A DNA stretch of 64,000 bases from Chryseobacterium luquanense (GTDB lineage: Bacteria > Bacteroidota > Bacteroidia > Flavobacteriales > Weeksellaceae). Under the pieces are notes generated by a model. The model did no database searches. It worked only from the letters and a program-made list of their open reading frames with translations, and was not told the origin of the DNA. Every line of letters begins with the position of its first letter. The stretch's first letter is position 1. Shown piece after piece: positions 41,807-54,126 of this stretch. The stretch spans positions 124,001-188,000 of the forward strand of contig NZ_JAOVZV010000015.1 in NCBI RefSeq assembly GCF_026460945.1. Reading direction: 5' to 3'. Made by a program: the position numbers and the translations under genes.

Positions 41807-41839
41807 ACAGTTCAGTAATTCAAATCAACCGTTCGGTCA
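41807..41839 (+). promoter_or_regulatory. LytTR-type operator site A, upstream of the TonB receptor
   Basis: ACAGTTCAG (41807-41815) and ACCGTTCGG (41828-41836) are 9-bp direct repeats with 12 bp between them and 21-bp start-to-start phasing. Both match the LytTR consensus [TA][AC][CA]GTTN[AG][TG]. A second such site is at 48578-48610, with the same spacing and a similar distance to a -7 element. A LytTR regulator gene is in this locus. Confidence 0.7.
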
Positions 41840-41869
41840 AAAAAAAAAAGAAACGATAAGTTTTAGATA

Positions 41870-41877
41870 TAGTTTTG
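41870..41877 (+). promoter_or_regulatory. Predicted -7 element of the TonB receptor gene
   Basis: TAGTTTTG matches TAnnTTTG; the ATG is at 41895. There is no -33 TTTG, which would fit an activator-dependent promoter using site A, 33 bp upstream. Confidence 0.5.
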
Positions 41878-41894
41878 TAAGCAAATAAACCGCC

Positions 41895-44126
41895 ATGAAG
41901 ACTATTTGTACTAAATTTCTTTACTTTTTCGCTTTTTTAATTAGTATTTTTCATTTTTCTCAAAGCATTAAAATTTCAGGAAAAGTAAGTTATAAAAACA
42001 AAGGAATATCCGAAGTCAATGTCACTTTGAAAGATACTTATGATGGTGCAACGACTGATAAAGAGGGTAATTTCTCATTTGAAACTTCTGAAAAAGGAAA
42101 TCATATTCTTACCTATTCACATTCAAAGTATATTGAAGTTGAAAAAAATATCAATATTTCAAATCAGGATTTAAGTATTGATATTCAGTTAAAAGAACAA
42201 GTGAACGAAATTGATGCAGTCGTGATCACGGCGGGTTCGATTGAAGCGAGCGACAAAAACAGATCAGCAATTATTAGTCCTTTAGATGTTTATACAACAG
42301 CCGGTGCAGATGCGCAGATTTCTTCGTATGTGACGTATCTTCCGGGAGTTCAGAAAGTAGGAGAGACAGAAGGACTTTTTATCCGTGGAGGAACTGGCTC
42401 TGAAGCTAAAATTTTTATGGATGGAAGTTTAATTAACAACTATTTCTCCAATTCTGTTCCCGGAATTGCTGGTCGTGACCGTTTCAATACCTCTCTTTTT
42501 AAAGGGAATGTATTTTCCAGTGGTGGATATTCTGCGCTTTACGGACAGGCACTTTCCGGAGCTTTAATGCTTGAAAGTGTAGATTTTCCGGACCAAAGTT
42601 CTTATGATTTCGGAATTTCGCCTATATTTTTAAATGCAAGTTTACAGAAAGTCAATGATGAAAAAACATTCTCTTACGGAATAAGTGCAGGATATTCCAA
42701 TTTAAAACTAATGCAGGAAGTTCTGAATTTTAATACAGATTTCAACGAAGCTCCAAGTGGTTTCAATGGAGATTTGAATTTTAGATTTAAAACAAAATCA
42801 GGCGGAATGTTTAAATATTATGGAATGTTTAATAATGATGTTATGGGCGTGAAAACAGCAAGTCTGGAACCTGATTCTCAATATTTTTTAGTTGATTTAA
42901 AAGGTAAAAACACATTTCACAATCTTTCTTTTAAGCAAAAATTTGGCAAATATCTATTGAATGTTGGTGCATCTTATTCTTTTAACCGGTCAGATTTAAA
43001 TTTTTCAAGTGAAACAAATGATATTCAGTCTTCGCCAACAAGATTATTAACTGATGGAAATTATTTGAATTTTAAAACGATTTTAGAAAGAAAAATTAAC
43101 AGAAGAGTTACCGCAAGAGGAGGTTTTGAGTTAAATCAGGCTCGCGAAGAACTTTCTATTGAAGAAGTCCGTAAAGATTATAAAGATTTAATCTCCTCTG
43201 CTTTTCTAGAAACAGACATTGCTTTTAGCAACAGATTTTCAGCAAAAGCCGGAGCGAGAGCAGAATATTCATCTTATCTAAAAGAAAGCAATTTTGCGCC
43301 CCGTTTTGCACTCGCTTACCGTTTAGATAAAGACTGGACAACATCATTTGCCTACGGAATTTTTTACCAAAATCCTGAAAGCAGATACATTAATTCAGGC
43401 GCAAAACTCTATTTTCAGCAGTCGCAGCATTATATTTTTCAGGTTCAGAGAACTGTAGAAGGAAGAAATTTGAGATTGGAAGCATTTTACAAAAAATATA
43501 ACAATTTAATTAAAGTTCAGAATATTGCGAATATTCCCGGGCAATATCAACCGGTACAGGCTGCAGTCAATAATCAGGGAGACGGTTTTGCAAAAGGAGT
43601 TGAACTGTTTTGGAGAGACAAAACAACGATTAAAAATATTGATTATTGGATAAGTTATTCTTATCTCGATTCTGAAAGAAATTTTTTGAATTATCCAACG
43701 ACTTTAAAACCTGGATTTGCTTCTGAACATACGGTTTCTGTTGTAGCGAAAAGATTTTTCCCAAAGCTGAAATTCCAGACCAATCTTTCATTTAATTATG
43801 CGAAAGGAAGACCTTATTACGATATTGTTACCGAAAACGGAACCAATATGATCCGAAATGAAGGAAGTCTGAAAGATTATAGTTCAATCAATCTTAGTTT
43901 CAATTATCTTCCGAGTATCGGTAAAAAAGATGCTAAAGCATTTACGGTTTTTGTTTTAAGTGTTTCAAATGTTTTAGGCAGAAAAAATATGTACGGATAT
44001 AACTTTTCAAATGACGGAAATTTCAGATCAGCAATTGTTCCGCCTGTTAATACATTTGTTTTTGTAGGGGCTTTCATCAGTTTCGGAGTTGATAAAACAC
44101 AGGATGCAATCAATAATAATCTTTAA
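41895..44126 (+). CDS. TonB-dependent outer-membrane receptor
   Basis: A 743-residue receptor. Signal peptide (about 1-23), a carboxypeptidase-regulatory-like domain (about 25-110, KISGKVSYKNKGISEVNVTLKD), then plug (about 115-220, NRSAIISPLDVYTTAGADAQ, RGGTGSEAKIFMDGSLINN) and a C-terminal barrel rich in paired aromatic strands, ending ...VFVGAFISFGVDKT. The ligand is unknown. It heads a plus-strand set with a periplasmic protein, a sensor kinase and a 2TM protein, and carries LytTR site A upstream, so it is probably part of that circuit. Confidence 0.9.
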   Translation: MKTICTKFLYFFAFLISIFHFSQSIKISGKVSYKNKGISEVNVTLKDTYDGATTDKEGNFSFETSEKGNHILTYSHSKYIEVEKNINISNQDLSIDIQLKEQVNEIDAVVITAGSIEASDKNRSAIISPLDVYTTAGADAQISSYVTYLPGVQKVGETEGLFIRGGTGSEAKIFMDGSLINNYFSNSVPGIAGRDRFNTSLFKGNVFSSGGYSALYGQALSGALMLESVDFPDQSSYDFGISPIFLNASLQKVNDEKTFSYGISAGYSNLKLMQEVLNFNTDFNEAPSGFNGDLNFRFKTKSGGMFKYYGMFNNDVMGVKTASLEPDSQYFLVDLKGKNTFHNLSFKQKFGKYLLNVGASYSFNRSDLNFSSETNDIQSSPTRLLTDGNYLNFKTILERKINRRVTARGGFELNQAREELSIEEVRKDYKDLISSAFLETDIAFSNRFSAKAGARAEYSSYLKESNFAPRFALAYRLDKDWTTSFAYGIFYQNPESRYINSGAKLYFQQSQHYIFQVQRTVEGRNLRLEAFYKKYNNLIKVQNIANIPGQYQPVQAAVNNQGDGFAKGVELFWRDKTTIKNIDYWISYSYLDSERNFLNYPTTLKPGFASEHTVSVVAKRFFPKLKFQTNLSFNYAKGRPYYDIVTENGTNMIRNEGSLKDYSSINLSFNYLPSIGKKDAKAFTVFVLSVSNVLGRKNMYGYNFSNDGNFRSAIVPPVNTFVFVGAFISFGVDKTQDAINNNL

Positions 44127-44133
44127 AATCACC

Positions 44134-44260
44134 TTTTTTTACCGCAAAAGAATCAAAAGAAATGACTGAAATAAAATTCAAAAGTTTACAAAATATAAAA
44201 TCGCTTTTGAATAACTACAAACAGGAATGAAAATCTTTTGTCTTTTTTGCGGTAAAAAGA
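44134..44260. repeat. ACCGCAAAAG-type intergenic repeat, copy 2
   Basis: TTTACCGCAAAAGAATCAAA (44138-44157) and TTTTGTCTTTTTTGCGGTAA (44236-44255) form a long imperfect inverted repeat, about 27 bases with four mismatches. The central AAGTTTACAAAA lies at about 44182-44193. This gap separates the receptor gene from the next plus-strand gene. Confidence 0.75.
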
Positions 44261-44299
44261 ATTAATAATAAAATATCAAACAATTAAAATTTAGAAATC

Positions 44300-44950
44300 A
44301 TGAAAAAATTAATCTTAAGTTTTGCTTTAAGTATGTTGAGTTTAACTGCTTTTGCACAGGGTCAATATGAAAAAATAATGACAGAAAAGATCGCCAAAAT
44401 AGAAACCTGTAAGACAGCAGAAGATTTCAATGCTTTGTCTAATGATTTTCAGAGAATTGCCGATAAAGAAAAAGGGAAGTGGCAACCAAATTATTATGCT
44501 GCATTTTCGCAGATTCAAAAAGGAAGGGTTATGATGCGTGAAAATAAAATGAGTGAACTTGATGCAGTTGCAGACCACGCTCAGGAATTTGTAGATTTAG
44601 CAGAAGCAGCAGACAAAAACAATTCTGAAATTTATCTTCTCCAAAAAATGATTTATTCACTAAAAATGATGGTCAATCCGATGGAAAGATACATTACTTT
44701 TGGAACGAAAGCTGATGAATTTCTTAAAAAAGCAGAACAACTGAATCCTCAAAATCCAAGAGTAACTTTGATTAAAGCGGAAGATATTTACTTTACACCT
44801 GAACAATTTGGCGGAAGTAAAAAGAATGGAATGGAATTATTTAAAGCAGCTTTGGAGAAATTCAATTCATACAAACCAAAAACGGCTTTAGACCCAAATT
44901 GGGGGAAATCTGAAGCAGAATATTTTATCAGTCTATCTGCAGAGAAATAA
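44300..44950 (+). CDS. Periplasmic helical-repeat hypothetical protein
   Basis: A 216-residue secreted protein (signal MKKLILSFALSMLSLTAFAQ) with TPR-like helical repeats: QYEKIMTEKIAKIETCKTAED, NALSNDFQRIADKEKGKWQPNYYAAFSQIQKGR, a middle MVNPMERYITFGTKADEFLKKAEQLNPQNPRVTLIKAEDIYFTPEQFGGSKKNG-type block and a final GMELFKAALEKFNSYKPKT. The pattern resembles small TPR proteins found beside TonB receptors. No specific role is known. It precedes the sensor kinase by 62 bp. Confidence 0.7.
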   Translation: MKKLILSFALSMLSLTAFAQGQYEKIMTEKIAKIETCKTAEDFNALSNDFQRIADKEKGKWQPNYYAAFSQIQKGRVMMRENKMSELDAVADHAQEFVDLAEAADKNNSEIYLLQKMIYSLKMMVNPMERYITFGTKADEFLKKAEQLNPQNPRVTLIKAEDIYFTPEQFGGSKKNGMELFKAALEKFNSYKPKTALDPNWGKSEAEYFISLSAEK

Positions 44951-45012
44951 ATATTTAATTTTGTCAGCAATAATTTTTCAATTAATGCTTTTTTAAGCTT
45001 GAAAACCAATTT

Positions 45013-46344
45013 ATGAAACGTAAAAATTTTATAACATTAGCATGGGTATCGCTTGGTACATCAATGTTCTTCTTTTTTGTCTTTACTGACGAGAAAAATA
45101 TAGAGAATTTTCTATACACGATTATTATTTCATTCATGTATTCATTTGTTTTGGGTGGTGGAAATGGCTTAATAAACGACTTTCTCAACAAAAAGTTTCC
45201 GTGGTCTGAAGCGACAACCAAAAGAGGAATTATAAGTATTGTTGTGATATTGATTGCTAATATTATCATGGTTTATTTCTGTAATTATATGAATTTTGTG
45301 GTTTTTCAAAAAGGAGCAACCACAGCAGAATATTTTAAGGGAAAATATAATTTTATCAACTGGTTTACCATCAATATTGCGCTTCTGATTTCGGCTTTTC
45401 TTCATGCGAAAGGTTTTATGGATGAACTGAAAAAAACATCCAGAAAAGAAGTTGTAGAGCAGAAATTAATTGCAAAATCTGCCAATGCACAGTTTGAAAG
45501 TTTAAAAAACCAGCTCGATCCCCATTTTTTGTTTAATTCTTTAAATGTTCTGAGTTCGTTAATTGATGAAAATCCTGTTCAGGCGCAGAAGTTTACAGCT
45601 TCAATGTCAAAGATTTACCGATATGTTTTAGAACAAAAAGATAAAGAATTGGTTACTGTTGAAGATGAAATTGAATTTGCAAAAATCTACTGCGATTTGC
45701 TGAAAACAAGATTTGAAGACAGCGTGAATTTTCAGTTTGATGTTGATAAAGAAAATCTGCGAAAATTTGTAGTTCCGCTTTCTCTGCAATTGCTTTTGGA
45801 GAATTGTATTAAACATAACTTGGCAACTTCTTCAAAACCATTATCGATAAGAATTTTTACGGAAGGAGATGTTTTATGTATTGAAAATAATCTGCAAATT
45901 CGTGAACAGATCAAGGAAAGTGCAGGAATCGGTTTGGCAAATATTGTACAACGTTATTCTTTACTGACAGACAGGAATGTTTATATAGAAAAATCTGAAG
46001 ATTATTTTAAAGTAAAACTTCCGATTCTTATTGATAAACCGAATGTTATCAGTGTAAATAGTGATGATGAAGATAAAGCGTACTTAAGAGCCCGAAAGAG
46101 AGTAAAAGAGATGAAAGGATTTTACGGAAATCTTGCTTCATACTGTATTATTATTCCTTTTTTAATATTTATAAATCTTTATACTCAAAATAAGTATCAT
46201 TGGTTTTGGTGGCCGCTTTTAGGTTGGGGAATTGGGGTTGCTTCTCACGCTTTCCAGGTTTTTGGAATCGGTGAATCGTGGCAAGAAAAAAAGATTCAGG
46301 AAATTATGAATAAACAAAAAAACAGACATCATGGAAAAATTTGA
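45013..46344 (+). CDS. LytS-type sensor histidine kinase with C-terminal 2TM domain
   Basis: A 443-residue membrane kinase. Four N-terminal helices (about 7-23, 34-50, 70-93, 113-131) precede a His_kinase domain: phospho-His in NQLDPHFLFNSLNVL (about 170-184) and an ATPase part with LLLENCIKHNL and ESAGIGLANIVQRY. The C-terminus (about 355-440) is a 2TM domain: AYLRARKRVKEMKGFYGNL, two helices, then SWQEKKIQEIM. It should pair with the LytTR regulator at 49341. It overlaps the following 2TM gene by 14 bp. Confidence 0.93.
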   Translation: MKRKNFITLAWVSLGTSMFFFFVFTDEKNIENFLYTIIISFMYSFVLGGGNGLINDFLNKKFPWSEATTKRGIISIVVILIANIIMVYFCNYMNFVVFQKGATTAEYFKGKYNFINWFTINIALLISAFLHAKGFMDELKKTSRKEVVEQKLIAKSANAQFESLKNQLDPHFLFNSLNVLSSLIDENPVQAQKFTASMSKIYRYVLEQKDKELVTVEDEIEFAKIYCDLLKTRFEDSVNFQFDVDKENLRKFVVPLSLQLLLENCIKHNLATSSKPLSIRIFTEGDVLCIENNLQIREQIKESAGIGLANIVQRYSLLTDRNVYIEKSEDYFKVKLPILIDKPNVISVNSDDEDKAYLRARKRVKEMKGFYGNLASYCIIIPFLIFINLYTQNKYHWFWWPLLGWGIGVASHAFQVFGIGESWQEKKIQEIMNKQKNRHHGKI

Positions 46345-46630
46345 CGAAAATGATATCAATTATCAACATGCTAAAAAGCAAGTAGAAAGATTAAGAGGTT
46401 TCTATGGGCATTTATTTTCATATGTTGCTGTGAATCTTTTGTTTGCCTATTTCAATTATATCAATCTGAAGCCAAATGAGAGCTATTTTCAATTTAAAAA
46501 TTTCATTACAGCAATTTTTTGGGGAATAGGAATTTTAGCACATGCGTTGTTTGTTTTTCTGCCTAGATTTGACTTTGCAAAAAAATGGGAAGAGAAGAAG
46601 ATTAAAGAAATAATGGATAAAAATAAATAG
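46331..46630 (+). CDS. 2TM-domain small membrane protein
   Basis: A 99-residue protein homologous to the kinase C-terminus: YQHAKKQVERLRGFYGHLFSY, then two helices (about 30-48, 60-80) and KKWEEKKIKEIM. It overlaps the kinase gene by 14 bp, so it is translationally linked, and ends at a terminator. The family is unstudied; close linkage to LytTR kinases suggests a sensing or scaffolding role. Confidence 0.85.
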   Translation: MEKFDENDINYQHAKKQVERLRGFYGHLFSYVAVNLLFAYFNYINLKPNESYFQFKNFITAIFWGIGILAHALFVFLPRFDFAKKWEEKKIKEIMDKNK

Positions 46631-46666
46631 AAAGTCAGCATTGAAAAATGCTGACTTTCTATTTAT
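46625..46666. terminator. Bidirectional terminator between the 2TM gene and the T9SS cargo
   Basis: Long stem AAATAGAAAGTCAGCATT / AATGCTGACTTTCTATTT around GAAA. T runs follow on both sides; it ends 5 bp before the cargo stop. Confidence 0.93.
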
Positions 46667-46670
46667 TAAA

Positions 46671-48479
46671 TTACTTTTTTACAGTCATTTTAAATACTTT
46701 GAGTTTTTCTCCTTTTTCGTTATTTACTTGTACTAAATAATTTTCTGGGGTTAAAAGACTTTGTAAATCAAATTGTTGTTCTTTTTTACGCTCTACATTC
46801 TTTTTAATAATAAGCTTTCCAGACATATCATAAATTGCGATGGAACATGATTCATTTTGTAAAATACTTCCGGAAATACTAAATTTTCCGTTGTTCGGAT
46901 TGTTGTATAAAGTCAAATCTTTTTTAGCGTTCGATTCTTCAAGAGATAGCTCGGTTTTTTTATTTAATCTTGCAATATAACCTGTATTTTCTGTTGTTGT
47001 ACTTGGGATTCTATATGGCATAAAAGCCCCTTCTGTTGCGTAGCCAATGTTGGAATTGGTATTTCCGAAAAGAAACAAAGAATTATTGTCATATTTAACA
47101 TTGATCGATTTCAGATATGGAGTATTTGTTGAGCTTCCACCATAATAAGAACTCCATTCCAGATTTCCTGAAGAATTAAATTTAGCAAAGAAATTATTGG
47201 TCATATTGCTGGATGAACTTTGAGGTGAACTTTGATAAGATCCCGGAGTAGCAATATTATCTGTTGATCCCATTGTAATTCCTGAAATGAATATATCATT
47301 TCCGTTTACATCAATTACTTTATCGAAAGTATTCATATCATCACCATTTCCTCCAAAATAAGTACTCCAAACTTTATTTCCATTATGGGAAAATTTAGAA
47401 ATAAATAAATCTGAACCACCTGTTACTTGTGTTTTGTAAGCGTTCGGTGTTGCAAAAAAATGTGAGTTATTCCAGTTATAATCGGTACCTGTAATATATA
47501 ATCCAGTTTCATTTACAGACAAATCATATAAAAAGCAAAGAGATGTTCCCATTGAAGGCCCATAATAAGTTCCCCATATTCTTTGCCCGTTCTGAGCATT
47601 CATTTTTGTGATAGAATAGTCTGAAGTGTTTGTTTGAAATGCTCCTGCAGTAGCTATTGTATTGAGTGACGGATTGGTATTGGTTGTTGTTATCATATAC
47701 AGTGCACCATCATAATATTTCATAGCAAATATTACGGTCGGTAAATAGGTTGACCAGATGAGCTCTCCATTTGAGTTTAATTTAGTTAAATAATTATTAG
47801 GCTGAATATTTCCCTGAGAATAAACTACATCAAAATCTTCCTGAAAAACACCCGGCGTACTTATATTTTGATGAATGGTTGATCCTGTAATGTAAATATT
47901 TCCGGCAGAGTCTGCTATCACATTAGCATATAAACTTTCATCAGGTAAATATGTAGCCCAGATTATTGATCCGGTTGGCGATTTTTTCACAAGCATATGT
48001 TTCAACGATGTTTGTGGATTTGTTTGTAACCATGTTCCTGTTGTCGGGTTCATAGTTGATGTGAAAGTTCCTAAATATCTGGAAATTTTGTTGTCTTGAT
48101 CATCAATTGCCATTAATAATTCGAAGTCTTGATTATTTGTGTTAACATTAAAAGCATGATAACCAAAATAATCAACCGTTCCTGTAGGCGTAATACGAGT
48201 AGAATAACCATTATTTATGGTATAATTTCCACCTCCGACAATTACAAATTGATCATAGTAAGAAGCTGTATATAGACTATTAGGGAAAACGTGTGCTTTT
48301 AAATGCATATTTTTTTGAGAATCGAGAATAATTCCCTGAGGAACATAATGTCCTGTAACATCAGTACCTGCAGGTCCAAAATACGTTCCCCAACTTCTTT
48401 CGTATTCCTGTGCTGAAACTGAATTTAATGAGATTGTAAATAATAAAGCACTGGTTAGTTTTAGTAAAGCTTGTTTCAT
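46671..48479 (-). CDS. Secreted SBBP-type beta-propeller protein with T9SS type A sorting domain
   Basis: A 602-residue secreted protein with signal peptide (about 1-23, ...NSVSAQ). The body holds spaced W-x-T-Y-x-G repeats (SWGTYFGPAG, WATYLPDE, WSTYLPTV, WGTYYGPSM, WSTYFGGNGDD, WSSYYGGSS), the SBBP beta-propeller type. The C-terminal about 85 residues (LTLYNNPNNGKFSISG to KVFKMTVKK) form a type A sorting domain for T9SS. It is a paralogue of the gene at 52333. It sits between the kinase and regulator halves of the LytTR locus, and divergent site B lies upstream. Confidence 0.9.
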   Translation of the reverse strand: MKQALLKLTSALLFTISLNSVSAQEYERSWGTYFGPAGTDVTGHYVPQGIILDSQKNMHLKAHVFPNSLYTASYYDQFVIVGGGNYTINNGYSTRITPTGTVDYFGYHAFNVNTNNQDFELLMAIDDQDNKISRYLGTFTSTMNPTTGTWLQTNPQTSLKHMLVKKSPTGSIIWATYLPDESLYANVIADSAGNIYITGSTIHQNISTPGVFQEDFDVVYSQGNIQPNNYLTKLNSNGELIWSTYLPTVIFAMKYYDGALYMITTTNTNPSLNTIATAGAFQTNTSDYSITKMNAQNGQRIWGTYYGPSMGTSLCFLYDLSVNETGLYITGTDYNWNNSHFFATPNAYKTQVTGGSDLFISKFSHNGNKVWSTYFGGNGDDMNTFDKVIDVNGNDIFISGITMGSTDNIATPGSYQSSPQSSSSNMTNNFFAKFNSSGNLEWSSYYGGSSTNTPYLKSINVKYDNNSLFLFGNTNSNIGYATEGAFMPYRIPSTTTENTGYIARLNKKTELSLEESNAKKDLTLYNNPNNGKFSISGSILQNESCSIAIYDMSGKLIIKKNVERKKEQQFDLQSLLTPENYLVQVNNEKGEKLKVFKMTVKK

Positions 48480-48577
48480 AAGTATTTTGGTTTGATGTTG
48501 ATGTAAAGATATAAAATTCTTTTAAAGGTGATTTAATGTTTTTTAATTTATTATATATCTGTTCAGATTTCATTTTT

Positions 48578-48610
48578 ACAGTTCAGTAATTAAATTCTAC
48601 AGCTCGGTCA
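48578..48610 (+). promoter_or_regulatory. LytTR-type operator site B, upstream of the 2TM-LytTR operon
   Basis: ACAGTTCAG (48578-48586) and ACAGCTCGG (48599-48607) are direct repeats with 21-bp phasing; one base departs from consensus. The first half-site is identical to that of site A. It faces a consensus promoter at 48622-48649; the divergent cargo gene begins 99 bp to the left. Confidence 0.7.
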
Positions 48611-48621
48611 TATTAAATTGA

Positions 48622-48649
48622 TTTGAGGCAGTAATCTGTTCTACATTTG
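48622..48649 (+). promoter_or_regulatory. Predicted promoter of the 2TM-LytTR operon
   Basis: TTTG (48622-48625) and TACATTTG (48642-48649), 16 bp apart, as in the pgk promoter. Site B ends about 34 bp before the -7. The first gene starts at 48693. Confidence 0.65.
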
Positions 48650-48692: not shown

Positions 48693-48989
48693 ATGGAAAA
48701 TTTATCAGTTAATCAGGAAAATTTAGCATATCGCAAAGCTGCAAAAAGAGTAAAAGATTTGAAAGGTTTTTATGGAAATCTTACTTCATACTGTCTGGTA
48801 ATTCCTTTTTTGTTGGTCATTAATCTTTTGACGTCGCCGAATGAACTGTGGTTTTACTGGCCAATGTTAGGTTGGGGAATCGGAATTGCTGCTCATGCAG
48901 TAAATGTTTTCGGAATCGGAAAAGATTGGGAAGAAAAGAAAATTCAGCAGTTGATGGATGAAGAAAGAAGAAACAAAAAATCACTTTAA
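48693..48989 (+). CDS. 2TM-domain small membrane protein
   Basis: A 98-residue protein: YRKAAKRVKDLKGFYGNLTSY, two helices (about 33-50, 57-73), FGIGKDWEEKKIQQLMDEER. It is nearly identical in pattern to the kinase C-terminal 2TM domain at 46081-46320. It heads the operon controlled by site B and is followed by a second 2TM gene after 26 bp. Confidence 0.85.
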   Translation: MENLSVNQENLAYRKAAKRVKDLKGFYGNLTSYCLVIPFLLVINLLTSPNELWFYWPMLGWGIGIAAHAVNVFGIGKDWEEKKIQQLMDEERRNKKSL

Positions 48990-49015: not shown

Positions 49016-49288
49016 ATGAACTATAACAACGCCAAAAACAGAGTAAAAGATTTAAAATCATTCTACAAAAACTGTATGTGGTTCGGAATCGTTGCCGGAA
49101 TCATATTGCTGAGAAATTTTATAAAATATAGAGAAACGGATCATGTTTTTCACGGGTCAATAATCTTGACAGTTTGGGGAATCATTTTAGCAGTAAAAGC
49201 GGTAAAACTTTTTATTTTTGATGCTGAATGGGAAAATAAAATTATTCAGGAAGAACTTCAAAAAACCAAAAAGCCGATTAATTTTTAA
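49016..49288 (+). CDS. Divergent 2TM-domain small membrane protein
   Basis: A 90-residue protein with YNNAKNRVKDLKSFYKNCMWF, two helices (about 21-36, 51-68) and DAEWENKIIQEELQKTK. It keeps the Y-x-x-A-K-x-R-V-K-D-L-K-x-F-Y start but lacks the W-G-I-G-I-x-x-H core of its neighbours. It is between the other 2TM gene and the LytTR regulator. Confidence 0.8.
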   Translation: MNYNNAKNRVKDLKSFYKNCMWFGIVAGIILLRNFIKYRETDHVFHGSIILTVWGIILAVKAVKLFIFDAEWENKIIQEELQKTKKPINF

Positions 49289-49340: not shown

Positions 49341-50084
49341 ATGATCAGAACTGTCATTATCGAAGACGAAAAACCTGCAGCAAGAAAATTAGAAAGAATG
49401 TTGAGTCTTTTTCCTGATTTGCAATTGGTTGCAAACCTGGAATCGGTAGAAGATGCCGTGAACTGGTTTTCTGAAAATGAGCATCCTCAATTGATTTTTT
49501 CAGACATCGTTTTGGGAGACGGTTTATCATTTGATATTTTTGAGAAAATTTCTACAAAAGCATTTATTATTTACACGACCGCTTTTGATCAATATACTTT
49601 AAAAGCTTTCAAACTCAACAGCATCGATTACCTTCTGAAACCAATTATGGAGGAAGATCTTGCGGGAGCAATTGAGAAATTTAAATCATTTATTCCTTCA
49701 GATCAGTCTGTGAATTCGGATGATATCAAGCAACTTATTAAGAAAGAAAAATCTATTCTTTCGAGAATTCTGGTGAAAATTGGGTACAATTTAAAAATTG
49801 TTCAGACACAAGAAATCAGCTGTTTTTACAGTGAAAACAAAATTGTTTATCTTCAGACTCAGGATAGGGTTTACCCTTCAGATTTTACTTTAGATGAGCT
49901 TACTGAAGTTCTTGATGATAAGAAGTTTTTCCGTGTCAACAGACAGTTTATTATCAATTCAGATTTTATCAAAAATATCCATACTTCACCTAATTATAAA
50001 GTGGAACTAAATTTTCAGCCAAGCGAAGAAATTACAGTTAGTCGGGAACGAGTAAAAGATTTTAAAGATTGGTTAGTAAACTAA
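49341..50084 (+). CDS. LytTR-family response regulator
   Basis: A 247-residue regulator. The receiver domain (about 1-115) has the acidic pair at 8-9, the phosphoacceptor Asp55 in IFSDIVLGDGL and a Lys in LLKPIMEEDL. The C-terminal LytTR domain (about 145-245) binds DNA and ends in VNRQFIINSDFIKNI and TVSRERVKDFKDWL. It is the likely partner of the kinase at 45013. Two candidate binding sites lie at 41807 and 48578, the second in front of its own operon, which suggests self-activation. Confidence 0.95.
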   Translation: MIRTVIIEDEKPAARKLERMLSLFPDLQLVANLESVEDAVNWFSENEHPQLIFSDIVLGDGLSFDIFEKISTKAFIIYTTAFDQYTLKAFKLNSIDYLLKPIMEEDLAGAIEKFKSFIPSDQSVNSDDIKQLIKKEKSILSRILVKIGYNLKIVQTQEISCFYSENKIVYLQTQDRVYPSDFTLDELTEVLDDKKFFRVNRQFIINSDFIKNIHTSPNYKVELNFQPSEEITVSRERVKDFKDWLVN

Positions 50085-52332: not shown

Positions 52333-54126
52333 TTATTTGATAATTAATTTAAAACTTTTTACGAACATTTTATCTGCTTTTTTTATTGATAGAATATAAT
52401 TTCCTTTCGAAAGTTGATTTTCAAGGTTAAAATGCTCTTCTTTACTTTTTTGAATGCTTCTGGAATAAATTAATCTTCCGGACATATCATTAATACTGAT
52501 AATATGTGGTTCTTTATTTAATACAGACCCTTTTAAACTGAAATTTCCATTATTTGGATTGTTGTATAGAACAAAATCTTCAGAAGAATTTACTTCAGAG
52601 GTAGAGAGAAATTTAGGATTGAATTTGACAATATATCCAGAACGACCCATTGTAACTCCCGGTGGATAAATAATTCCTTGCTGATAACCATTTGTGGATG
52701 TTAAGCCGTTGTTACGATAAGTTGCTCCATACAGATAAAATCCGTTGGTTGATTTTGAGAAACTGCACCTCGCATCAATAGTCTCTGAAGGGCTATTAGC
52801 AGTACCTCCGTAATACGAAATAAAATCTGGCTGTCCATTGTTGGTATTTAGAATACCAAAAAAAAGATCTTCACTATTCGGGTTAGGTTTTGTGCTGGCA
52901 AAAGCTCCAGCGGTTGAAATATTATAATTTCCGTGATGTAATCCTGTGAAAAGCAATTTCCCATTTTTTATATCAAGTCCTCTGTCTCCGCTGTAAGAAT
53001 CATAACCATCAGTTCCTATGTAGGTACTCCAAACCCTGTTTCCTGAAAGATTGAATTTCGTAATAAACATATCAGCGCCATCATTCGTCTGAGATTTATA
53101 AGCTCCTTCTGTAGCATAATAAATACCACCCATTATGCCAAAGGTCATTCCTGTTACATATACTCCTGTTTCATCTGCTTTTATATCAGAAAGACTTGCA
53201 TCAAGCGTATTGCCTGGTGTTCCATAATAGGTTCCCCATATTCTTTGTCCTGTCATTCCGTTAATTTTCGAAATAAACTGTCCTGCTTTTGCAATCTGAA
53301 AAGTATTTGGGGATGATAATGTTGCTTCTGTTGTATTTAAGTCATTATTTCCAAAAATGTAAAGATTATTCTCATAAACAGTTAGCCCGTTTATTGAACT
53401 GGAAGGGGTGTAAGTTGCCCAAAGTTTTTGACCTTGAGGATTTAATTTTACGATATAAGTATTGGATAAAAGTTCCCCTGAAGCATCATAAACATACTTG
53501 AAATTCTGTTGAAAAGTACCCGGATCTGCCAAGGTTTGCCATTTTGTATTACCTGCGATATAAATATTTCCGTCATTGTTGACCTCAAAATTGTAAAATT
53601 CTCCATTATTGGGAACGTAGGTTTTCCATAAGAGATTATTATTTATATCATATTTAGCAAGGATTACATCAGTTGGCTCATTATTGTTTGGTAGCCATAC
53701 TCCGGATGGAAGTGCTGTGTAAGCTGTAATATTACTCACCATATCATATCGGTTTCCAAGATCATCTCTGAAATAAGTGTTTTGTTTTGATGTGGGCAAA
53801 TAAGATATTTTATATTCTGCCTGTAGGAGATTTCCTGAAGATGAAAATTTGCCATATAAGTTATTAGGATCGTTTCCTGTATATGTTTGACTTCCAGAAG
53901 TCACAAACTGATTATAATAAGAAACAGGAGTGCTTCCTCCAGTAGGATTTAGATAAGTAGTGATAATATCTACAGAGATGTTAGAAGAGCTGTCTTCATA
54001 AATTCCTGTAAGATAGGTATTAGTCCCACCGAAATAAGTGGCCCAATCTCTGTCATAATTAAAGCTTTGGGCAAACAGACTCGAAGAAAATAAGATAAAG
54101 AATAGATTTTTTGATTTCATATTCAA
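52333..54126 (-). CDS. Secreted SBBP-type beta-propeller protein with T9SS type A sorting domain (second copy)
   Basis: A 597-residue paralogue of the 46671 gene: signal peptide ending LFAQSFN-like, then RDWATYFGGTNTYLTGIYE, WKTYVPNN, WATYTPSS, WGTYYGTPGN and WSTYIGTDGYD propeller repeats. The C-terminal sorting domain (about 512-597) runs from VLYNNPNNGNFSLKG to VKSFKLIIK. Both proteins share the Y-N-N-P-N-N-G start of that domain. A -7 element is predicted at 54155-54162. Role unknown; surface display is expected. Confidence 0.9.
   Translation of the reverse strand: MNMKSKNLFFILFSSSLFAQSFNYDRDWATYFGGTNTYLTGIYEDSSSNISVDIITTYLNPTGGSTPVSYYNQFVTSGSQTYTGNDPNNLYGKFSSSGNLLQAEYKISYLPTSKQNTYFRDDLGNRYDMVSNITAYTALPSGVWLPNNNEPTDVILAKYDINNNLLWKTYVPNNGEFYNFEVNNDGNIYIAGNTKWQTLADPGTFQQNFKYVYDASGELLSNTYIVKLNPQGQKLWATYTPSSSINGLTVYENNLYIFGNNDLNTTEATLSSPNTFQIAKAGQFISKINGMTGQRIWGTYYGTPGNTLDASLSDIKADETGVYVTGMTFGIMGGIYYATEGAYKSQTNDGADMFITKFNLSGNRVWSTYIGTDGYDSYSGDRGLDIKNGKLLFTGLHHGNYNISTAGAFASTKPNPNSEDLFFGILNTNNGQPDFISYYGGTANSPSETIDARCSFSKSTNGFYLYGATYRNNGLTSTNGYQQGIIYPPGVTMGRSGYIVKFNPKFLSTSEVNSSEDFVLYNNPNNGNFSLKGSVLNKEPHIISINDMSGRLIYSRSIQKSKEEHFNLENQLSKGNYILSIKKADKMFVKSFKLIIK

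Follow-up and report, generated by a model that had tools for sequence, protein, structure and literature searches.

A 64,000-nucleotide stretch of the genome of Chryseobacterium luquanense (assembly GCF_026460945.1, contig NZ_JAOVZV010000015.1, positions 124,001 to 188,000 of the forward strand; hereafter the window) carries two predicted LytTR-type operators, sites A and B, in a locus that encodes a TonB-dependent receptor, a homologue of the Porphyromonas gingivalis porphyrin haemophore HusA, a histidine kinase, three 2TM proteins and a LytTR-type response regulator. It appears probable that the kinase, the 2TM proteins and the regulator form an autoregulated system that activates HusAB-like uptake, with haem or porphyrin as the most likely ligand. 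Operators of this kind are already known; what is new is the bounded regulon and its likely HusA-type function, a role that the initial annotation of the window had missed.

Site A (41807..41836, plus strand), located 5' of the TonB receptor gene, reads ACAGTTCAG-N12-ACCGTTCGG, with repeats at 41807-41815 and 41828-41836. Site B (48578..48607, plus strand), located 5' of the 2TM-2TM-LytTR operon, reads ACAGTTCAG-N12-ACAGCTCGG, with repeats at 48578-48586 and 48599-48607. Both are 9-N12-9 direct repeats with 21 bp from start to start, as can be read directly from the DNA. The -7 box of the receptor promoter, TAGTTTTG (41870..41877, plus strand), lies 33 nt past the end of site A, and that of the regulator operon, TACATTTG (48642..48649, plus strand), 34 nt past the end of site B; both fit TAnnTTTG. 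The receptor ATG (41895) follows 59 bp 3' of the end of site A and the first 2TM ATG (48693) 86 bp 3' of the end of site B. The positions, pairing and phasing given in the initial annotation are correct to the base, and the distance from the second repeat to the -7 box is as it claimed. The LytTR consensus that it quoted also fits, except at the second repeat of site B, where a C at position 5 misses it by one base.

In the canonical LytTR site, as described, two 9-bp repeats are separated by 10-13 bp, and the majority of LytTR regulators are said to activate from positions upstream of -35 (both PMC11347149). Sites A and B are each a direct-repeat pair of about 9 bp with a spacing in this range, and each lies upstream of its target's promoter core, with 33-34 nt between its end and the -7 box. 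They are predicted to be LytTR-type operators at which a LytTR-domain protein would bind. A degenerate paired pattern allowing up to three mismatches has three matches in the 64 kb, where the expected mean is 0.23, and the matches with no mismatch are sites A and B only.

Four genes on the plus strand lie downstream of site A. The TonB-dependent receptor (41895..44126) matches CarbopepD_reg_2 in Pfam, with Plug just below the cut-off, and is followed by p216 (44300..44950), a TPR-like HusA-family homologue of 216 amino acids whose start resembles a signal peptide by eye and which has no Pfam family at E<=0.001. The histidine kinase (45013..46344; PF06580, E 7e-24) has a 2TM domain (PF13239) at its C-terminus, and its gene overlaps that of the 2TM protein TM1 (46331..46630, Pfam). 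Downstream of site B, on the same strand, the operon begins with the 2TM protein TM2 (48693..48989, Pfam) and continues with the 2TM protein TM3 (49016..49288, Pfam) and the response regulator (49341..50084), the proposed binder of sites A and B, which joins a receiver (PF00072, E 3.9e-10) to a LytTR domain (PF04397, E 8.9e-22). Together, the kinase domain and the receiver-LytTR regulator make up a two-component system of the LytS-type/LytTR kind. The label "LytS-like kinase" given previously holds for the PF06580 domain but not for the sensor, as the Pfam matches at E<=0.001 are PF06580 and the C-terminal 2TM only, and the multi-TM sensor domain of LytS is not among them. PF13239 has four matches in the 4.35-Mb genome, all in this locus and one of them fused to the kinase; the count of 2TM genes differs from relative to relative. 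Searches of the PDB returned no relative of the receptor at E<=0.001 and, for the regulator at E<=1e-6, two chains that cover the receiver half only.

Conservation of the operators and their promoters

Conservation was followed in the window and in the best 80 of 580 relatives from a kinase scan of named genomes, which represent Chryseobacterium, Epilithonimonas, Kaistella, Cloacibacterium, Elizabethkingia and a few other genera. The gene order in most of the Chryseobacterium loci is receptor, p216, kinase, TM1, TM2, TM3 and regulator. A pattern built from the window alone (at most two mismatches, fixed 21 bp phase) was scanned against both strands of 1,661,730 bases, comprising these 80 loci and 28 kb of the window. 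It found 115 matches, 104 of which sit 0-105 bp upstream of five locus genes (TM2 35, kinase 32, receptor 25, TM1 7, p216 5). Four of the remaining 11 precede a hydrolase gene (L067, L074), a DUF2141 gene (L079) or a contig end (L025), the last of which would be a TM2-type promoter with its gene beyond the end of the contig. Six others (L006, L011, L015, L024, L033, L042) belong apparently to one homologous stretch, which falls within a conserved coding frame of the opposite strand in L006 and L024, the two checked, and were counted as background, as was an isolated match in L014, 884 bp from the receptor.

A position matrix was built from the 104 sites, so that its results are partly circular; it scores site A at 40.1 bits and site B at 40.8 bits. 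Of its 168 matches at 24 bits or more in the 80 loci and the window, 164 precede a receptor, p216, kinase or 2TM gene, and the other four are those of L067, L074, L079 and L025. A site of at least 14 bits precedes the receptor in 57 of 58 loci, TM2 in 46/52, the kinase in 58/81, TM1 in 9/79 and p216 in 7/59, and none stands before TM3 (0/59) or the regulator gene itself (0/78), as is expected for genes internal to an operon. When half-sites were sought singly, in pairs 9-60 bp apart, 89 pairs had the 21 bp spacing (86 of them located in the locus promoters) and one pair each was found at 25, 39 and 56 bp. The initial annotation had let its reading depend on conservation of the repeats in orthologous loci, and conserved they are, which also supports the receptor and the 2TM-2TM-LytTR operon as the targets that sites A and B face.

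The kinase of the window is among those without a site of their own. The gap between p216 and the kinase is 62 bp here; it is at least 128 bp in relatives with a kinase site and ranges from 40 to 547 bp in those without one. The window kinase may, thus, depend on site A.

The distance to the -7 box is as well conserved as the repeats. A strict TAnnTTTG begins 33 or 34 nt past the site in 148 of the 164 cases, and TAnnTTTG or TAnnTTTA begins 32-35 nt past it in 161, bearing out across relatives the fixed geometry first noticed in the window. The distance from site to ATG, by comparison, depends on the gene: 40-63 bp for the receptor, 58-60 bp for the kinase (one at 82) and 75-87 bp for TM2. With the -7 box taken as -12 to -5, where PMC9723704 places it, the operator would lie at about -75 to -46, a place fit for an activator. 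The -33 element is less uniform, a TTG being found there in 45/46 TM2, 32/56 kinase, 8/8 TM1, 7/46 receptor and 0/5 p216 promoters, so that, on this ground, only part of the promoter set looks activator-dependent.

The HusA homologue and its likely ligand

The p216 profile comprised 30 proteins, the window protein and 29 of 54 intact p216 proteins (41 after the redundancy cut). Searched against the PDB, it matches HusA (6bqs/6crl) with an E-value of 8.3e-38, and the other matches up to E 1 stand at 0.4 and 0.6. The AF2 model of p216 (pLDDT 91.4) agrees with this result: Foldseek aligns it to HusA with E 1.5e-10 and TM scores of 0.77/0.83, and VIA-align gives a Z of 24.1 with an rmsd of 3.0 over 194 residues, the next chain having a Z of 15.8. 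Sharing both the sequence homology and the TPR-like helical fold of the family, p216 is homologous to HusA, which serves P. gingivalis as a porphyrin haemophore.

Of 296 genomes from across the phylum, 69 have HusA homologues that the p216 profile detects. Neighbourhoods of 12.7 kb each were taken for 20 of 77 HusA places, of which 14 were in other orders (chosen mostly for their high scores, with G187 and G280, for example, left out), four were in a neighbouring family and two were second copies within the genus. A receptor related to that of the window lies near the HusA homologue in 15 of these 20 distant neighbourhoods, and a related kinase and LytTR-type regulator in seven (L189, L192-L197). 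The kinase and regulator are directly downstream in L192 and L193, as Pfam confirms for L192; in L189 the match is 29% identical and stands 3 kb off on the other strand. The four loci of the neighbouring family, which is of the same order (L194-L197), have 2TM genes as well, and matrix matches (18-35 bits) there precede genes for the receptor, p216 or a DUF2141 protein. A 16.6-bit match inside the receptor gene of L197 was set aside as background. The related receptor and the kinase/LytTR system are both missing in the second genus copies, L198 and L199, and in L186. These counts show that the receptor-haemophore pair is widespread and that its tie to a LytTR system is recurrent. In the window, the receptor gene adjoins p216, the arrangement expected of HusB, the TonB receptor encoded beside husA; "HusB-like", as we would use it here, refers to this partnership with a HusA homologue and not to a comparison with the sequence of HusB.

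What p216 would carry is less certain than its ancestry. HusA is described as binding haem and metal-free porphyrins in a groove, and substitutions of L123/V124, W130 and Y164 as lowering its affinity for haemin slightly (PMC6173696). In the profile alignment the counterparts of these residues in p216 are M124/V125, Y131 and F165, and the residue is aromatic at 131 in 58/59 and at 165 in 59/59 close p216 proteins. These aromatic positions, the family-level homology and the conserved TonB receptor partner argue for haem or porphyrin as the ligand. Several points weigh against this reading. The groove positions are variable in 20 distant HusA homologues, and our search found no published ligand-binding test for HusA homologues of these genera. 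We know of no part played in haem use by S33 hydrolases, one of which appears to be a further target of the regulator (see below). HusA homologues are reported from many Bacteroidetes, free-living ones included, and porphyrin binding by this fold has been suggested to have arisen in Porphyromonas (PMC6173696). It is, thus, possible, if rather unlikely, that the same regulon serves another hydrophobic ligand and that p216 shares with HusA its fold and ancestry only.

Activation by the neighbouring regulator and extent of the regulon

In the proposed mechanism, the PF06580/2TM kinase (45013-46344) would signal by phosphorylation of the regulator (49341-50084), which would then occupy each 9-N12-9 repeat in pairs, head to tail, from about -75 to -46 and help sigma-A polymerase at promoters in which the -33 element is frequently weak or absent, above all that of the receptor. 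Site A would drive the receptor and p216 and probably, given the missing kinase site and the 62 bp gap, also the kinase and TM1. The 2TM-2TM-LytTR operon would be driven from site B, resulting in positive autoregulation, and an S33 hydrolase encoded elsewhere in the genome would be an extra member of the regulon.

The reverse sign of control is unlikely. According to it, the regulator represses the receptor gene and its own operon, and phosphorylation either relieves or causes the repression. A LytTR repressor, CoxC, is described with three repeats that overlap the -35 element (PMC11347149), and the TTG near -33 in most TM2 and many kinase promoters indicates that not all of them are plainly activator-dependent; repression is possible on sequence grounds, which counts against the activation proposed here. 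The sites, however, are upstream of -33, their ends being about 33-34 nt from the -7 box, and 39 of the 46 receptor promoters lack the -33 TTG. A constant distance to the -7 box but not to the ATG is, moreover, typical of activators.

The regulator of the locus was assigned to the sites by its neighbourhood and by co-occurrence, because the genome contains nine LytTR-domain genes. Among 80 genomes of the family, a site (E<=1e-5) is found in 42 and the regulator (E<=1e-80) in 43; 40 genomes have both, three the regulator alone, two a site alone and 35 neither (Fisher 9e-17, a figure inflated by shared ancestry, as the genomes are not independent). The regulator cut-off was chosen after the list had been viewed and falls in a gap between 56% and 53% identity. 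G069, one of the two genomes with a site alone, has a completeness of 56%, and in G042, one of the three with the regulator alone, the regulator stands at a contig start. When these 80 genomes were searched with the kinase, 55 matches reached E<=1e-50, with identities falling to about 38%; because more distant kinases are among them, they were left out of the counts.

It is improbable that the sites are real LytTR operators of another LytTR regulator and that the neighbouring regulator acts elsewhere. Apart from the inflated statistic, the nine LytTR-domain genes and the five genomes in which site and regulator do not coincide weigh in favour of this alternative and against the assignment made here, as does a control paralogue, L156 (E<=1e-80), which occurs in 14 genomes, all of them site-bearing (Fisher 4e-5). 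L156 was the one paralogue used as a control, with the seven other LytTR genes outside the co-occurrence test. L156 is, however, absent from 28 of the 42 site-bearing genomes, an association weaker than that of the neighbouring regulator, and the sites precede the operon of the regulator or of the kinase in various gene orders (for example kinase-first, TM1-first or p216-first).

The whole genome was scanned with R1, a sequence-only model of 81 positions; the site alignment, A1, holds 57 of 58 non-redundant sites, one kinase site of L078 being omitted. R1 has three near full-length matches in the genome, namely site B (55.7 bits), site A (43.4 bits) and a third site of 32.8 bits (G000:C2:988-1063, minus strand), which reads ACAGTTCAG-N12-ACACTTCAG with a TATATTTG box in register. 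The next match, at 22.7 bits, spans one half-site only. When 17 loci with matches of 22.7 bits or less (L088-L104) were re-scanned with the matrix, the maximum was 7.2 bits and they were rejected as sites; 56 still weaker matches were left out of this re-scan. The third site lies 63 bp before a gene for an alpha/beta hydrolase of the S33 type (PF12146 in an intact homologue), whose start resembles a signal peptide by eye. The hydrolase frame is interrupted in this genome (L087:172-970, near the end of contig C2), leaving pieces of 183 and 97 aa; intact homologues exist in other genomes, and the interruption could be an assembly error or gene decay.

Across 40 genomes drawn evenly from the genus, the own genome included, R1 finds two to four sites (E<=1e-5) in every genome, mostly clustered. 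This agrees with the small regulon predicted from the window, although the membership proposed for it was incomplete: the receptor unit and the regulator operon stand, while the promoter of the hydrolase and the kinase site found in many relatives had been missed. Of the outlying sites in the genus, seven were followed (the match G039:C96 was left out), and five of these precede the same hydrolase and two a different, membrane-anchored protein. The hydrolase is matched at E<=1e-30 in 12 of the 40 genomes; its absence at this cut-off from the other 28 speaks against a fixed place in the regulon, and it is, therefore, best regarded as an accessory member. Eleven of the 12 hydrolase promoters score 16.5-34.8 bits, some with a deviating second repeat, and one scores 8.6 bits; all 12 have TAnnTTTG at 33 nt. 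In L067 and L074 the hydrolase gene (55% and 48% identical) and its site lie inside the kinase locus. From the search of the family 16 regions were picked in which the site was distant from the kinase or preceded a gene of unknown kind; seven of them contain the hydrolase, seven the receptor and/or p216, one a DUF2141 protein and one nothing recognisable.

Some further targets were seen in these searches. The membrane-anchored protein of the two genus genomes (L136:2748-3476 and L139:2492-3550) has weak similarity to ChaN-type (haem-binding uptake) proteins and is followed in L139 by a DUF2268/GldB-like protein. The ChaN-like label of these targets (G007 and G038) rests on PF04187 at E 0.0059, below the cut-off, and was not used as evidence for haem. 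A DUF2141 protein comes first after the site in L079:9462-9875, L196:5645-6064, L175 and L197, in Polaribacter and loci outside the family or genus of the window. L174 (G113:C1:1493200-1496700) has a 35.9-bit site identical to that of G040 with no recognisable locus gene beside it, and G113 is a genome without the regulator at E<=1e-80.

In the window, sites A and B each have a divergent neighbour, sodC (41249; Cu/Zn SodC in Pfam) and a cargo of the type IX secretion system (T9SS), a T9SS-sorted SBBP protein, and the initial annotation had suggested that these genes may respond too. That the sites serve divergent pairs, with sodC and the cargo co-regulated, is very unlikely, and divergent control was rejected on the ground of conservation. 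Of the 49 loci that have both sodC and the receptor gene, 17 place them no more than 320 bp apart, whereas the receptor site is present in all 49, and of the 80 loci and the window, the window alone was found to carry a homologue of the cargo between TM1 and TM2. The direct repeats are, furthermore, directional, and the -7 box of the gene that follows stands at a constant distance from them. The cargo (46671-48479) runs opposite to TM1 and TM2, between which it lies, and is 34% identical to a related T9SS-type SBBP protein beside the locus (52333-54126); its T9SS sorting domain was the only NCBIfam match above cut-off among the window proteins. In L006 (11667-12242) and L024 (11676-12245) its position holds a multi-TM protein, that of L006 matching PF04140 ICMT (E 5e-18) and PF04191 (E 1.8e-16). 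Finally, a chance likeness of the two repeats, which has their shortness alone in its favour, is refuted by the conservation of the sites and runs counter to their phase and to the matches in the own genome and the genus.

Related systems and significance

The operators resemble those of AgrA/YpdB/CoxC-type regulators, for which a site upstream of the promoter core, made of two 9-bp direct repeats and a 12-bp spacer, is described (PMC11347149, PMC4847170). They differ in their sequence, about ACNNYTCRG, in the fixed 33-34 nt to the Bacteroidota -7 box TAnnTTTG, and in occurring in several copies per locus. Similarly, the PF06580 kinase and the receiver-LytTR regulator recall LytS-type/LytTR systems such as YpdA/YpdB and relatives, but here the kinase has a C-terminal 2TM domain and is encoded together with three more 2TM proteins.

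As for uptake, p216 lies beside a TonB receptor as a HusA homologue, and HusA and HusB are encoded in the hus operon of P. gingivalis (PMC10100897, PMC6173696); the locus described here differs in containing a kinase/2TM/LytTR system, which is probably its controller. P. gingivalis also has a two-component system linked to haem acquisition, HaeSR, which, however, is said to regulate hmuY, kgp and rgpA (PMC10100897). Within the Weeksellaceae, RhuH/RhuR/RhuA of Riemerella anatipestifer likewise combine a haemophore with a TonB receptor, but RhuH is reported to be 10.7% identical to HusA and its locus to be under Fur (PMC11967795). A word search of the literature, in which subscription papers are little covered, returned no link of LytTR regulators to HusA, to such 2TM proteins or to Chryseobacterium promoters; in a PSP paper with 2TM domains (PMC11237479) the term is used in another sense.

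A more far-reaching model can be proposed tentatively. In this model, the kinase, surrounded by 2TM proteins and itself fused to a 2TM domain, would sense porphyrin status at the envelope, with the 2TM proteins, products of the operon that they would tune, acting as membrane co-sensors of the kinase or brakes on it, and would drive its own genes and HusAB-type uptake via uniform 9-N12-9-(33/34)-TAnnTTTG promoters. If true, it would describe a dedicated haemophore-uptake switch that is present over much of one family and is seen, with its sites, in a neighbouring one.

The strict promoter architecture allows targets to be predicted genome by genome. The regulon, furthermore, suggests a likely role for a secreted protein without a Pfam family and brings a domain that has been little described, 2TM, into association with uptake of the haemophore type. 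Among the species of Chryseobacterium and Elizabethkingia are opportunists that affect humans and fish.

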